Below are positions 31,980 to 37,381 of a stretch of 53,387 nt of DNA, piece by piece. The notes under the pieces are model-generated. The model was not told the origin of the DNA. It made no database searches and saw nothing but the letters and a program-made list of their open reading frames with translations. Source of the stretch: Methylobacter sp. (GTDB lineage Bacteria; Pseudomonadota; Gammaproteobacteria; Methylococcales; Methylomonadaceae); contig NZ_JAUXVR010000039.1 of assembly GCF_030680395.1 (NCBI RefSeq), positions 1-53,387 on the forward strand, written 5' to 3'. Position numbers and translations under genes: made by a program. The stretch's first letter is position 1, and each line of letters begins with the position of its first letter.

Positions 31980-32657
31980 ATGATTAAATGTGGACGACCT
32001 CGCAAAGGAGAGGAGCTGTTAAGCCGTGATCGCTTACTGGACACAGCCTCCAGTCTGTTCCTCGAATACGGCTACGGCAACCTCAGCCTGGAAACCATCG
32101 CGCGGGATGCGCGCGTGTCGATGCGAACCATCTACAACCAGTTCGGCGGTAAGGCCGGACTCTTCGGCGCGGTGGTAAGGCGTTGCAGTGACCAGTTTGT
32201 CACCGGCCTGTCGGATGAGCATGTCCTGGAGCGTTCTCCGGAAGATACGCTGGTCTTTTTTGCCAAGCAGTTTTTGCGCCGCATCACGCAGCCGGATGTG
32301 GTGCGCATGCGCGCCATACTGATCGGCGAATCGCCACGCTTCCCCGATCTTGCCACTCAATTCTATGAACAAGGGCCGCAGCGCACCCTCGATCATCTTG
32401 CCCAGTTTTTCGCCCGGCAGCAGCAAGCAGGCCATTTTGTCGTAATGGATCCGCATTTTCTCGCCGACCAGTTTTTGAGTGCGTTACGTAGTGAACGGTT
32501 CCAAAAACTGCAACTCGGTCTGGAACCAACGCCTGATGAAGCGGAAATCGATGTTTGGGTACGACAGGCTATCGGCTTGTTCCTGCACGGTAGCCTGAAA
32601 AACAGGCAGGGCAGTACAAGTGATACCACGGTTGAACCGTGCGTCCGGAATCCTTAA
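31980..32657 (+). CDS. TetR-family transcriptional regulator of the efflux operon
   Basis: A 225-aa regulator. The helix-turn-helix is LSLETIARDARVSMRTIYNQFGGKAGLF (about 38-65), followed by a ligand domain with the TetR_C-type stretch ...RAILIGESPRFPDLATQFYEQGP as in AefR/AcrR-like proteins. It probably represses the divergent RND operon and itself. The start is ATG 31980 (MIKCGRPRKGEE), which fits the short basic arm typical before the helix-turn-helix; the frame is open 45 bases further up, into the operator region. Confidence 0.88.
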   Translation: MIKCGRPRKGEELLSRDRLLDTASSLFLEYGYGNLSLETIARDARVSMRTIYNQFGGKAGLFGAVVRRCSDQFVTGLSDEHVLERSPEDTLVFFAKQFLRRITQPDVVRMRAILIGESPRFPDLATQFYEQGPQRTLDHLAQFFARQQQAGHFVVMDPHFLADQFLSALRSERFQKLQLGLEPTPDEAEIDVWVRQAIGLFLHGSLKNRQGSTSDTTVEPCVRNP

Positions 32658-32843
32658 TTCGTCTGTAGCATTTAAGCTATACAGCAGGCTATGGAATTCA
32701 GGAGTCTTCCGTGTCTTCTGGAGTCCGGTAAATAGAAATATCCTTCAAGGTAGGCGGCTAGCAGGCAGGGAGTGTGCTCAATCAGATTGAGGGCACTCCC
32801 TGGCTAATGACCGGCAATACAGAATCACAACAAGGATTTAATC

Positions 32844-33209
32844 GTGAAGAATATTTTAACAACAGACAGTTCTGAAGCTCACAACGCATTCTGGAATACC
32901 CCTGCTGAGCAGCAACTCAAACAGCTGGCTAGTACTCAGTCAATTCTATTTTGACGGGTAAAAGTAAATCCGTTCGTCCTGAGCCTGTCGAAGGATGAGC
33001 GGATTTACGCTGAGCTAAACAAATTTTACACGACATAACAAGACTGACTGAGTACTAGGACAGCTCAAGGATTAAGCAATGAAGAAGCCGAGCAACGCAT
33101 AAAGCACTATGGTGCAAACCGCCTGAACAATAAAAAGCAGACGGGAAACTTACGACTGTTTTTTGCCCAGTTTAAAAACTCCACTGCAAAACGCATGATT
33201 GCGCCGTAA
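32844..33209 (+). pseudogene. P-type cation ATPase remnant, split by a MITE
   Basis: The GTG at 32844, with AAGGA upstream, reads MKNILTTDSSEAHNAFWNTP and on to KQLA. A 124-bp MITE then interrupts the frame and brings a stop. After it, the frame resumes as RTAQGLSNEEAEQRIK, then HYGANRLNNKKQ and LRLFFAQFKN. This is the N-terminal cation-ATPase domain that precedes the first helices of Ca/Mg-type P-ATPases. The coding sequence then diverges and stops at 33207-33209; the transmembrane and catalytic parts are lost. Removing the MITE plus one TA gives an open frame across the junction (GCT AGG). Confidence 0.75.
32932..33055. mobile_element. 124-bp MITE with TA target duplication
   Basis: Terminal inverted repeats GTACTCAGTCA (32932-32942) and TGACTGAGTAC (33045-33055) are perfect and flanked by TA on both sides (32930-32931, 33056-33057), as for IS630/Tc1-type elements. 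The interior has an inverted pair AAATCCG...CGGATTT around CGTCCTGAGCCTGTCGAAGG, a widespread bacterial repeat. It is non-coding and interrupts the P-type ATPase remnant. Confidence 0.85.
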
Positions 33210-33908
33210 TTATTTAATCTTTATACCCAGTTGCTTAACAGTTTTACCCGCAATTTTTGCCGCATAGATCAGCACTGCCAAGAAAATAGCTAAACCCAAC
33301 GTCAGCAGCGGATAGGAAACGGTACTCTGCGGCGCAGCATCACTGAGCAACCCGGACAGGTGTTTGGCGGTATAGCCGAAATAAACCAGACTGATATTGT
33401 AAATTAAAATACCGCTGGTAGCGGCCAGATAAGGCCGGAACCTGACCTGAGTCACCGAAAAAGCATAGCTCAGCATTGCAAACGGCAAAGGTGTCAGGCG
33501 CAATAAAAACATCAGCTTAAATTCATTACCCTTGATAACCTCGTTGAGCTCAGAAAAATGCTTATATTTGGCAAGATGCGTAAGCACTCTGTCGCGCAAT
33601 AAATAGCGGCCCACAAAAAAAATAAGTGCCGATGTTAAATAGGTTGCGATAACGATATAAAACATCCCGGCACTGATTGGGAATAATAAGCCGGCAGCAA
33701 AACAGAGTGCATCGACTGAAACAAAAAGAGGTGTCAGAATGACAAATAACGTAATAAAACCCAGTGGCGCAAAAGCGCCCAACTCCTGAATTCGGACTTC
33801 CAAATCAGGAAGATAAAGTTCCAGTTCATGGCCAATAAGTAATACAACCCCGACAAAAATGAAAGCTATCGCTAATTTTTTGATAAGTCCTGTTTCTTGC
33901 AGTTGCAT
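33210..33908 (-). CDS. TVP38/TMEM64 (VTT-domain) membrane protein
   Basis: A 232-aa protein with about five or six hydrophobic segments. The VTT/SNARE-associated core is visible: FAPLGFITLFVILTPLFVSVDALCFAAGLLFP, then FFVGRYLLRDRV and the LLRLTPLPFAMLSYAFSVTQVRFRPYLAAT stretch. DedA/VTT proteins are thought to move or flip lipids; the substrate here is unknown. The stop abuts the end of the ATPase remnant on the other strand. The ATG at 33908 is preceded by AAGGAG about 6 bases upstream. Confidence 0.88.
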   Translation of the reverse strand: MQLQETGLIKKLAIAFIFVGVVLLIGHELELYLPDLEVRIQELGAFAPLGFITLFVILTPLFVSVDALCFAAGLLFPISAGMFYIVIATYLTSALIFFVGRYLLRDRVLTHLAKYKHFSELNEVIKGNEFKLMFLLRLTPLPFAMLSYAFSVTQVRFRPYLAATSGILIYNISLVYFGYTAKHLSGLLSDAAPQSTVSYPLLTLGLAIFLAVLIYAAKIAGKTVKQLGIKIK

Positions 33909-34209
33909 GTGTTATTACTCCTTGAAGAAAATTATCAGTAATTAATAGAGCTGGAAGATTTTCAATATATTTTAACAATCCAAAAACCTCCACATTCCTT
34001 AAACTATTATTTCGTATATTTCTTTAGAACGAAATAGGAAAAACCCCGCAGGGTTGGGCTTATAATCCAATCATGAAATATTGACGGACATTTATTTCCG
34101 AAAACGCTTTCTTTTACCAAATTGTCAGGATAATCCCGATACTTATTCACAAAACCCAAAATATAGATTTTTCTGGAAAGCTTCAGATAATTTAGTGAAA
34201 TTAAAATCG
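33909..34209. other. AT-rich intergenic stretch before the cas3 remnant
   Basis: About 300 AT-rich bases between divergent genes. The only structure seen is a short AACCC-CGCA-GGGTT stem near 34044. The cas3 frame is open through part of it, but no ribosome site or homology supports an earlier start. No leader-like or repeat sequence was recognised. Confidence 0.35.
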
Positions 34210-34900
34210 ATGATGAAAAACCAATCAAATAAACTTCACATTGCCCATGTCCGCGCAGCAGACCAAAGTATTCAATCATTAGAAACCCACTTACTTGAAG
34301 TGGCGGAAATCAGCAAAAAATTAGCCGCTAAAATTAATGTGCCTGAAGCAGGAGAACTGATAGGGCTTTTGCATGATTTCGGCAAATACAGTGCGTCCTT
34401 TCAGAATTACATACAATCCGCTACCGAGTTAATTGACCAGGATAACGATGACTACGTTAATGCCGGTGCGCTAAAGGGAAAAATAGATCACTCAACAGTG
34501 GGCGCGCAGTGGGTATGGGAAGCGCTGAGTAAATACGGTAAAAACGGCGAAGGAAAATTATGCGGCCAAATACTGGCGCTGTGTATTGCCTCGCATCACA
34601 GCGGGTTGATCGATTGTTTAAAGCCGGAGGGCGTTAATGGCTTCAAAGAGCGGATAAATAAAGATGACCAGCGATCTCATCTAGCTGAATGCAAGCAAAA
34701 TGCACATCCATTTATTTCAGACAAGGCGCTGAACCTGGCCGGTAAGCCTTTGCTGACAGGCATGCTCGATCAAATAAAATTATTGACCCGGACGGAGCAG
34801 CATGGGCAAATAATATCGGAAGCCATTAAGCAATTTTATGTCGGCTTTTGGACTCGGTTTTTATTCAGCTGCCTGTGATAGACGCGGACCGGATTAACAG
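34210..34900 (+). pseudogene. cas3: Truncated cas3 (HD nuclease part only)
   Basis: From the ATG at 34210, 222 codons encode a Cas3 HD domain: H27 (ETHLLE), H55-D56 in LLHDFGKYSASFQNY, H94 in DHSTVGAQ and H129-H130 in ASHHSG. The frame stops (TGA 34876-34878) in FLFSCL. Reading one base back, VIDADRIN continues to 34898, the expected FSCLVDADR segment of Cas3, so a one-base deletion lies here. The sequence then passes directly into a CRISPR repeat at 34901. The whole helicase half and all other cas genes are gone, so the gene is a relic. Confidence 0.8.
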
Positions 34901-34932
34901 GTCGCGCCTCACGCAGGCGCGTGGATTGAAAC
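34901..34932 (+). CRISPR. Solitary type I-C-like CRISPR repeat
   Basis: The 32-base unit begins GTCGCGCC and ends GTGGATTGAAAC. Its arms CGCGCCT and AGGCGCG form a 7-bp stem with loop CACGC. Length, palindrome and the ATTGAAAC tail are those of type I-C repeats. Only one copy exists; four bases later the lon stop codon begins, so there is no spacer array. It is fused to the broken cas3, indicating a deletion that joined cas3 to the last repeat of the array. Confidence 0.75.
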
Positions 34933-34936
34933 AGCA

Positions 34937-37381
34937 TTATGCCGGGTTGGCCTTATTCCGGCCTGCAACAGGATCATTTTCCACGGCAACTTTTAACACA
35001 TCATCCACATTTTCCAGCCAGACAAAGCGGAGTTGATTTCTCACCGCTTCGGGTATTTCTTCAAAGTCTTTCTTGTTGAGCGCAGGAAGCATGACTGTTT
35101 TTAGCCCCGCTCTGGCCGCAGCAATGACTTTTTCTTTAATGCCGCCAACCGGCAATACCAGTCCGCGCAGGCTTATTTCTCCGGTCATTGCCACATCGCT
35201 ATGTACGGTACGCTCGGAAAACGCGGAAAATAATGCGGTAAACATGGCGACTCCCGCACTGGGGCCGTCTTTAGGAATAGCGCCTGCCGGTACGTGGACA
35301 TGGATATCGTTTGTTTTGAATATTTCCGGGCTTAAACCCAATTCATGAGCGCGCGATTTCACCAGGCTTAACGCGGCCTGGGCGCTTTCTTTCATGACTT
35401 CGCCCAACTGACCGGTAAGGATCAGTTTGCCGTCGCCGGGCAGACGGGTGGCTTCGATAAAAAGAATGTCGCCGCCGACCGGTGTCCAGGCAAGTCCTGT
35501 GGCAACGCCCGGAACGCTGGTGCGCATCGCGACGTCGCTGTAAAACCTTTTCGGTCCCAGAATGCCCGGAATATGTTCGCCGTCAATCTGTTCATTAACG
35601 ACAATATCCTCGGCAATACGCATCGCTACATGACGAAATACGGAGCCGATCTCTCGTTCCAGATTTCTGCAACCAGCCTCGCGGGTATAGTCCTGAATAA
35701 TGGTGAGTATTGCGTTATCGGTGATTGCGCATTGCTCGGGATTTAAGCCGTTGCTTTCCAGTTGCCTGTGTACCAGATAGCGTTTGGCAATCTGAAGCTT
35801 TTCCTCGGAGGTGTAACCGGATAATTCAATGACTTCCATCCGGTCGCGCAAAGGCGCGGGGATGCTGTCCAATACGTTGGCCGTTCCGATAAACATCACA
35901 TGGCTCAGATCGAATGCGACCGCCAGGTAATTATCGCGGAAAGTTGAGTTTTGCTCGGGATCCAACACTTCCAGCAAGGCCGAAGACGGATCGCCATGAA
36001 ACCCCGAGCCGAGCTTGTCCATTTCATCGAGCATAAATACCGGGTTATTGGTGCCGGCCTTGCGTATGGATTGAATAATGTTGCCCGGCAGTGCGCCGAT
36101 ATAAGTGCGCCGGTGACCGCGTATCTCGGCTTCGTCATGCAGACCGCCGAGGCTGGCGCGTACAAATTCACGCTCGGTTGCGCGGGCTATGCTGCGTCCC
36201 AATGAGGTTTTTCCGACGCCGGGCGGTCCGACAAAGCATAAAATGGGGCTCTTGCCATTCGGGTTCAGCTTGCGCACGGCCAAAAATTCCAATATGCGCT
36301 GCTTGATTTTATCCAGGCCGTAATGATCTTCATTGAGAATTTCCCTGGCTCTTTTTATATCGATAACGCCTGTACTTGCGACCGACCAGGGCAGTTCGAT
36401 CAGCCAATCAAGATAGGCGCGAATCATCGAATATTCGCCGCTGGCATCCGGCATGTGCTGCAAGCGGCCAAGTTCCTTGCGCGCTTGTTTCTCGACTTCT
36501 TCAGGCATTTTGGCCGCACTGATGGCGTTGCTTATTTCTTCAATTTCGGCAGCACCGCCTTCTTCTTCGCCCAATTCCTTCTGGATAGCCTTCATTTGTT
36601 CCCGCAAAACGAATTCGCGTTGCCGCTGCCCCATGGTTTCCTGAGTTTGTTCGTTAATCTTGTTGGAGATTTTTAACACTTCGACTTGATAATTGAGTAA
36701 CTCCAGGATTTTGTCGATACGTGCCTGTATATCGAACAGTCCCAGTATCTCTTGTTTTTCCGGGGATTTTGAAACCAGGTAACTGGCGACCAGGTCAGCC
36801 AGCATCGACGGTGAAGTGATGGATTGAATGGCGTTAATCAGCTCATCAGGCGCTTGGTGTGTCTGAGCCAGAACTTCCAGCGCTTTTTGCTTGAGCGTTA
36901 TGACGCGCGCTTCGACATCCTTGGAACGCATTTCAGGCTCTTCGTAACGGTCAATCCGGGCGACAAGAAACGGATAACCCGGCAAAAACTCCTGTACGCG
37001 AAAGCGTTGCACCCCCTGACAAACGACATGATGCGTGCCGTCAGGCGCAGTTATATAGCGTAAAATTTCCGCTACAGTACCGACTGTGTAAAGATCATCC
37101 GGGTTGGGTTCCTCATCTTTGTCCCTCAATTGCATAAGCAGTCCGATCGGTTTCTCGGAACGCACCGCTTCTTGCACAGCCGCAATAGACAGTTTACGGC
37201 CTATCACCAACGGAGAAACGTTTTGCGGGAAAAGCACGGTTCCGCGCATGGGCACAATGATAATCGCATCATTGGGAACGGGGGGGAATTGCAACGGCGC
37301 TTCCTGCTTTATCTCTGAAGATGGCTCTTCCGTATTCGTCGTTGATCCCAGAAGTATATTTTTCAGATCCTTGATTTGCAT
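34937..37381 (-). CDS. lon: ATP-dependent protease Lon
   Basis: An 814-aa protease of full length. The N-terminal substrate domain (IIVPMRGTVLFPQNVSPLVIGR...) is followed by a coiled region, the AAA+ module with Walker A GPPGVGKTS (about residue 370) and Walker B FMLDEMDK, and the C-terminal protease domain with the catalytic serine in KDGPSAGVAMFTA and the lysine in GGIKEKVIAA. It degrades misfolded and regulatory proteins. It starts 9 bases after the hsp20 stop, so the two share a transcript. Its 3' end is 4 bases from the CRISPR repeat. Confidence 0.97.
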   Translation of the reverse strand: MQIKDLKNILLGSTTNTEEPSSEIKQEAPLQFPPVPNDAIIIVPMRGTVLFPQNVSPLVIGRKLSIAAVQEAVRSEKPIGLLMQLRDKDEEPNPDDLYTVGTVAEILRYITAPDGTHHVVCQGVQRFRVQEFLPGYPFLVARIDRYEEPEMRSKDVEARVITLKQKALEVLAQTHQAPDELINAIQSITSPSMLADLVASYLVSKSPEKQEILGLFDIQARIDKILELLNYQVEVLKISNKINEQTQETMGQRQREFVLREQMKAIQKELGEEEGGAAEIEEISNAISAAKMPEEVEKQARKELGRLQHMPDASGEYSMIRAYLDWLIELPWSVASTGVIDIKRAREILNEDHYGLDKIKQRILEFLAVRKLNPNGKSPILCFVGPPGVGKTSLGRSIARATEREFVRASLGGLHDEAEIRGHRRTYIGALPGNIIQSIRKAGTNNPVFMLDEMDKLGSGFHGDPSSALLEVLDPEQNSTFRDNYLAVAFDLSHVMFIGTANVLDSIPAPLRDRMEVIELSGYTSEEKLQIAKRYLVHRQLESNGLNPEQCAITDNAILTIIQDYTREAGCRNLEREIGSVFRHVAMRIAEDIVVNEQIDGEHIPGILGPKRFYSDVAMRTSVPGVATGLAWTPVGGDILFIEATRLPGDGKLILTGQLGEVMKESAQAALSLVKSRAHELGLSPEIFKTNDIHVHVPAGAIPKDGPSAGVAMFTALFSAFSERTVHSDVAMTGEISLRGLVLPVGGIKEKVIAAARAGLKTVMLPALNKKDFEEIPEAVRNQLRFVWLENVDDVLKVAVENDPVAGRNKANPA

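Follow-up and report, generated by a model that had tools for sequence, protein, structure and literature searches.

How does the beginning of a cas3 gene come to stand directly against a solitary CRISPR repeat at the end of lon, and does anything left there still have a use? The window, by which we mean the whole analysed stretch of 53,387 nucleotides, is one contig of a 4.36-Mb genome in 49 contigs (G000), and its host is most likely a methanotroph. A preliminary description of this DNA, made from its letters alone, read the locus as the scar of one deletion that had fused cas3 to the last repeat of a type I-C array abutting lon, with an HD fold that was either decaying or persisting as a free nuclease. 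Here the remnant, the repeat and the surroundings of lon were compared with those of related genomes.

Results

The remnant is the HD part of a type I-C Cas3

In profile searches the remnant scored 102.6 bits against TIGR01596 (cut-off 43.45; model positions 1-169 of 178) and 34.7 bits against PF18019 (cut-off 23.1), and its best PADLOC family was Cas3c, the type I-C form, at 114.7 bits. Thus the protein search of 34210-34875 that had been proposed as a check did find Cas3 HD families, and these matches together with seven full-length homologues establish the stretch as a Cas3 HD remnant. The reading frame is also listed with an upstream TTG start at 34081; the ATG at 34210 gives 222 aa. Matches to the remnant at an E-value of 1e-3 were found in 18 of 61 genomes drawn from the genus, family and order, G000 itself included. 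The seven relatives with an intact, full-length cas3 (G015, G014, G023, G036, G032, G011 and G022) have open frames of 821-851 aa and are 67-79% identical over the remnant part.

The HD residues said to be kept (H27, H55-D56, H94 and H129-H130) are invariant columns among 10 aligned sequences. For the type I-C Cas3 of N. lactamica, the excerpted text of PMC11417383 gives the metal ligands as H8, H25, H52, D53, H118 and H119, and reports that mutation of S192 costs activity. In our alignment these ligands correspond to H13, H27, H55, D56, H129 and H130 of the remnant, all six of which are kept, and S192 corresponds to S220, where the serine is kept as well. The helicase and C-terminal domains are absent, the cas3 DNA ending in codon 230, in agreement with the reported loss of the helicase part; about a quarter of the gene, its beginning, survives. 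An AlphaFold model of the remnant with the 10-sequence alignment as input was uninformative (mean pLDDT 44).

The reading frame breaks before the cas3/repeat joint

The preliminary description placed a one-base frameshift at 34875. A frame break is present, but its size is two extra bases (Table 1). The product ends FSCL, after which a TGA stands directly before a TAG. LIDADR follows the FSCL position in all nine relatives covered by the HD-end comparison and is out of frame in the window, so that the SCLIDADR stretch that ends the HD part of type I-C Cas3 is cut short. With six metal ligands and S220 kept and LIDADR out of frame, the catalytic residues are present and the end of the domain is missing; the HD fold once called intact is therefore intact in those residues but not at its end.

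Table 1. Features at and around the cas3/repeat joint (window coordinates)
Feature	Position	Strand	Basis
232-aa gene, left neighbour of the probable lost locus	33210..33908	-	90% identity to the G019 gene on the left of its repeat-free site
Flank left of the probable lost locus	33885..33944		80% over 61 aligned columns to the repeat-free G019 flank
cas3 5' remnant, HD nuclease part of type I-C Cas3, 222 aa	34210..34878	+	TIGR01596, PADLOC Cas3c, seven full-length homologues
Two extra bases relative to relatives, placing two stop codons in frame	34876..34877	+	Alignments to G015 and G014; translations
Final stretch of cas3 DNA, out of frame (IDADRIN plus two bases)	34878..34900	+	Alignments, translations; DNA matches to relatives
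Single 32-nt type I-C CRISPR repeat, oriented as cas3	34901..34932	+	Sequence searches, comparison with arrays of relatives
Four bases (AGCA) between repeat and lon stop codon	34933..34936		lon 3' flank common to G021 and G019 missing here
lon protease gene, intact, convergent with the remnant	34937..37381	-	ORF list, orthologues; name as in the preliminary description

The broken cas3 does run into the repeat as described, but its homology does not end at 34875 and continues in another frame to 34900. DNA matches to G015, G014 and G022 stop at 34900, from which we infer that the final cas3 base most likely directly precedes the repeat; the match to G011 stops at 34904, four bases further, and a DNA alignment of the joint was useful for three of the seven relatives. 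At this place G015 and G014 read AACAG followed by TGCTGATTTT, and the window reads AACAG followed by the repeat, GTCGCGCC.

The 32-nt repeat occurs once in the genome

The repeat was correctly described as one 32-base unit with a 7-bp stem, four bases from the lon stop codon, which begins at 34937. At up to 3 mismatches it has one copy in the window, against 0 in 100 shuffles, and one copy in the whole of G000 (4.36 Mb), and it is therefore not a sequence common elsewhere in the genome. The stem (-12.1 kcal/mol) is not exceptional, with a z of -1.49 and 20 of 200 shuffles folding as well, and Rfam would not call the repeat by itself (CRISPR-DR9, 19.7 bits against a gathering score of 45, E 0.26). 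Its type is indicated by the arrays near related cas3 genes in G015, G011, G022, G023, G036, G032 and G027, from which it differs by 2-4 mismatches; 34901-34932 is a 32-nt repeat like those of the I-C loci of relatives.

The surroundings of lon in related genomes

A close lon orthologue (86-100% identity) is present in 13 of 23 genus genomes, G000 included. Besides the window, 12 lon flanks were compared, and as lon runs off the contig in G003, 11 of them show the 3' flank. The comparison of this flank had been proposed in search of an intact I-C locus: none of the 11 has one. In a search that allowed up to 8 mismatches, G021 alone of the 11 has a repeat there; a complete operon occurs in G015, a genome in which no close lon orthologue was found.

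Among the genomes compared, G021 is the nearest relative by lon (96% protein identity; 94.8% DNA identity, 2317 of 2445 aligned bases). It carries the repeat once, identical at 32 of 32 bases, 556 bp from the lon stop codon (L086:7416-7447). On the left of this copy lies what we take to be a polyphosphate-kinase-like gene, the 232-aa gene is absent at that place, and the window cas3 has no match in the G021 genome. The 33 bases directly after this repeat (L086:7448-7480) start ACTAGG and end CCTAGT, an inverted repeat of about spacer length.

In G019 the order is an ATPase-like gene, a kinase-like gene, the 232-aa gene (presumably a TVP38/DedA-type membrane protein) and lon; between the last two there is no repeat, and a 136-aa ORF is listed. 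G019 has no match to the window cas3 or to cas8c anywhere, and no Cas1 match in the lon region. To the right of its repeat, G021 shares homology with the G019 flank in three matches, of 136 bp (79%), 50 bp (94%) and 68 bp (78%). When this right flank of G021 was compared with window positions 32601-33260 and 33881-34945, the repeat alone matched. Since both window flanks are collinear with G021 and G019, an assembly error is an unlikely source of the joint.

The left side of the window has a further break. Positions 32823-33183 are a remnant of the ATPase-like gene, which is intact in G021 and G019 (847 aa). A MITE-like insertion of about 125 bp (32929-33058), whose 35-nt inverted ends are 80% complementary, interrupts it. 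At 33183/33184 this ATPase remnant passes directly into the final bases of the kinase-like gene, which marks a second deletion some 1 kb away from the cas3 remnant.

The rest of the type I-C system

A search for cas8c gave no match in G000, G021 or G019, and the same search matched G015 and G011. The sole Cas1 match in G000 is not I-C-like and sits on contig C34 beside Cas3fv, of the I-F variant. G021 has two Cas1 matches, one within a 574-aa frame on C20 and one, split, on C101. The G015 locus, typed gene by gene, is a complete type I-C operon of Cas3c, Cas5c, Cas8c, Cas7c, Cas4c, Cas1c and Cas2c, followed by 55 repeats.

The remaining CRISPR locus of G000 (L034, G000:C34:78000-95642) looks like a type I-F variant. 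It contains the Cas1 match, Cas3fv (1504 bits), three more ORFs (326, 347 and 193 aa) and 33 repeats, each of 28 nt, in an array that reaches the contig end. Self-targeting as a cause of the loss was considered and rejected: the 32 spacers of this array, compared with the loci retrieved from the genomes (L034 excluded), gave only matches of 14-15 nt with E up to 0.05, which is chance level.

Leader ends and substitution counts

In G021 the 37 bases preceding the repeat finish with TACGCC, the same six bases with which the G011 leader ends. Twelve leader ends were picked from 21 loci; G092 (L120), L100 (probably the same record as G036), L106 and L110 were left out, as were loci that start inside the array (L108, L111 and L114-L116). 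One of the 12 matches the bases before the G021 repeat to six bases, one more to three bases, and ten not at all. About 0.2% of 50,000 random window positions share at least six end bases with any of the 12 leaders, a figure to be read against a match that was noticed after the fact.

On the G000 branch of the remnant there are 31 nonsynonymous and 27 synonymous changes, versus 21 and 30 for G015 (Fisher p 0.25). Relaxed selection was tested in three comparisons, none of which was significant (p 0.25, 0.21 and 0.32); three further substitution counts were made besides these. The counts suggest that the loss of cas3 is recent or weakly visible, and they give no sign of function.

Discussion

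Together, the results lead us to regard the feature as, very probably, the decayed remains that a lost type I-C CRISPR-Cas locus left beside lon, and neutral decay is the simplest account of the loss. The G015 operon, the G021 repeat, the repeat-free G019 site and the flank homologies uphold the earlier reading of a deletion scar of such a locus at lon. From the flank homologies and the comparison of G021 with G019, the ancestor of G000 and G021 most likely had an I-C locus between the 232-aa gene and the lon 3' flank, and this locus was most likely lost via different deletions in the two sister lineages. In their common ancestor it would have had the order seen in relatives, cas3-cas5c-cas8c-cas7c-cas4-cas1-cas2-array. 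In G000 a deletion of roughly at least 8 kb, as judged from the G015 locus, would then have joined cas3 codon 230 to the first base of the repeat, a further loss would have removed roughly 560 bp from the array to lon, and two extra bases would have brought what was left of the HD frame to a stop. The deletion in G021 would have been another one, taking the 232-aa gene and the cas genes and sparing only the repeat. Under neutral decay, any product of the G000 remnant would be no more than an inactive HD fragment, and its repeat would have no role.

Several points weigh against this reading. None of the 11 other lon 3' flanks shows an intact I-C locus, and G021 has the Cas1 match on C20, which might belong to any type. 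Random deletion does not predict an exact left edge, with zero bases between cas3 and the repeat, together with a near-exact right edge, with four bases (AGCA) before the lon stop codon. Moreover, with all six metal ligands and the serine still in place and no significant excess of amino-acid changes on the G000 branch, recent loss and some remaining use look alike at the level of sequence.

In the preliminary description a single deletion linked cas3 to the final repeat of the array, the leader-distal one at lon, and the repeat is indeed the element nearest lon and lies in array orientation. We nevertheless consider this variant doubtful, though still worth keeping in mind, because the G021 copy is preceded by TACGCC, the G011 leader end, and because the lon 3' flank common to G021 and G019 is missing in the window, so that array and lon were probably not adjacent to begin with. 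A single deletion to an array abutting lon is thus not enough, this shared intergenic region not being found in the window stretches compared. The bases shared with the G011 leader weakly favour a leader-adjacent repeat, or the repeat of a fully collapsed array, over the last one; arrays are known to lose spacer-repeat units in a way that keeps a repeat whole, as described in the excerpted text of PMC8047081. By our own rough estimate, with a repeat period of about 65 bases, a partial spacer or leader at the left edge would be expected by chance about 65 out of 66 times. Microhomology would explain the clean left joint; the G022 leader ends CAG, like the cas3 edge, whereas the bases before the G021 repeat end GCC. 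Alternatively, the spacer-integration machinery itself may have made the deletion, Cas4-Cas1-Cas2 having treated the broken cas3 end as a new spacer and joined it to the leader-repeat junction. The cas3/repeat joint is in the exact register of a spacer/repeat joint, and if the repeat is leader-adjacent the joint sits where the integrase, which attacks the leader-repeat junction first, would begin. This is a single case, microhomology with a leader ending CAG as in G022 could serve as well, and the break in G021 is not at a repeat border, and we judge such an origin quite improbable. If it were true, the immune system would have cut itself out, and leader-repeat junctions would be hot spots for the loss of CRISPR loci.

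Neutral decay also has to be weighed against a remaining function of either piece. The HD remnant might be kept as a free-standing nuclease like Cas3'', still made and active, as the match of H13, H27, H55, D56, H129, H130 and S220 to the N. lactamica residues and the lack of significant relaxation of constraint would allow. However, the frame stops before LIDADR, which is present in nine of nine relatives checked, and the aspartate of this lost motif is perhaps, we presume, the counterpart of T. thermophilus D205. In the excerpted text of PMC5965380, D205 is a metal ligand of the T. thermophilus HD domain. Furthermore, cas8c has no match in G000, the structural model was uninformative, and no other HD-only gene of this length is among the genus matches listed, G016 and G020 having shorter cas3 fragments with open frames of 114 and 106 aa. 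Judged from sequence, a working free nuclease is therefore unlikely, indeed very improbable. The least probable of the readings is that the repeat has been preserved because it serves some purpose itself, for example as a terminal RNA hairpin of lon or the remnant. The identity of all 32 bases in G000 and G021 speaks for it, but at the 94.8% identity of lon DNA a stretch of 32 bases would be unchanged by chance in 18% of cases. There is also no run of T after the stem on either strand, and the distance to lon is four bases in G000 and 556 in G021.

The process is an ordinary one, genome decay, but its edges are clean, and it documents in good resolution how a probable methanotroph lost a CRISPR system. 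The same type I-C locus seems to have gone from both sister lineages, by different deletions, and G000 has a type I-F variant locus instead. Among the papers listed in a literature search, none concerned this scar. The scar is useful for the study of how CRISPR loci vanish, and alone it alters no general view.

A close known counterpart is the type I-C locus of G015 (C75:41818 onward, L024). Its cas3 is 79% identical over the remnant, its repeat has the same length and tail, and cas3 lies ahead of the array in the same orientation. In contrast to the window, G015 has the complete operon and a 55-repeat array, its repeat differs at 4 positions, and the locus is in a genome without a close lon orthologue among those found. 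Similarly, the type I-C Cas3 of N. lactamica (PDB 8g9u, as given in part of PMC11417383; 8zns by sequence match) has HD ligands and an S192 equivalent that are kept in the remnant, whereas the remnant lacks the helicase and C-terminal domains and ends inside the last conserved HD stretch.

Other broken cas3 starts were seen among relatives. In G027 (L032:7241-9726, contig C148) the start of a window-like cas3 (residues 3-78, 78% identical, one TGA inside) runs directly into a complete, different cas3 of 761 aa with its own downstream genes and array, which looks like a locus swap with a break inside cas3. In G020 (L033:15793-15975, contig C166) there is another cut cas3 start, of 61 residues and at 62% identity. 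The 16 kb read there contain no repeat; the genome has 23 repeats on contig C57.

Isolated repeats are rare, and G000 is probably not the only genome with one. The repeat pattern is matched by 21 of the 121 genomes in a family sample, with a single hit in three (G000, G021 and G092); G092 was rejected as a third solo repeat, for it holds a full array of variant repeats beside two cas1/cas2-like genes (names by eye). Of the 370 genomes in a class sample, 12 match a looser pattern, with one hit each in G000, G331, G427 and G502, the last of which was set aside because a second repeat is present, cut by the locus edge. The type I-C-like repeats of G427 (L140:1118-1149) and G331 (L145:1501-1532) look isolated, with no others in the short loci read. 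Thus repeats without nearby cas genes are found in G021 and, by pattern and short loci only, in G331 and G427; unlike these, the repeat in the window is joined directly to a 5' fragment of cas3.
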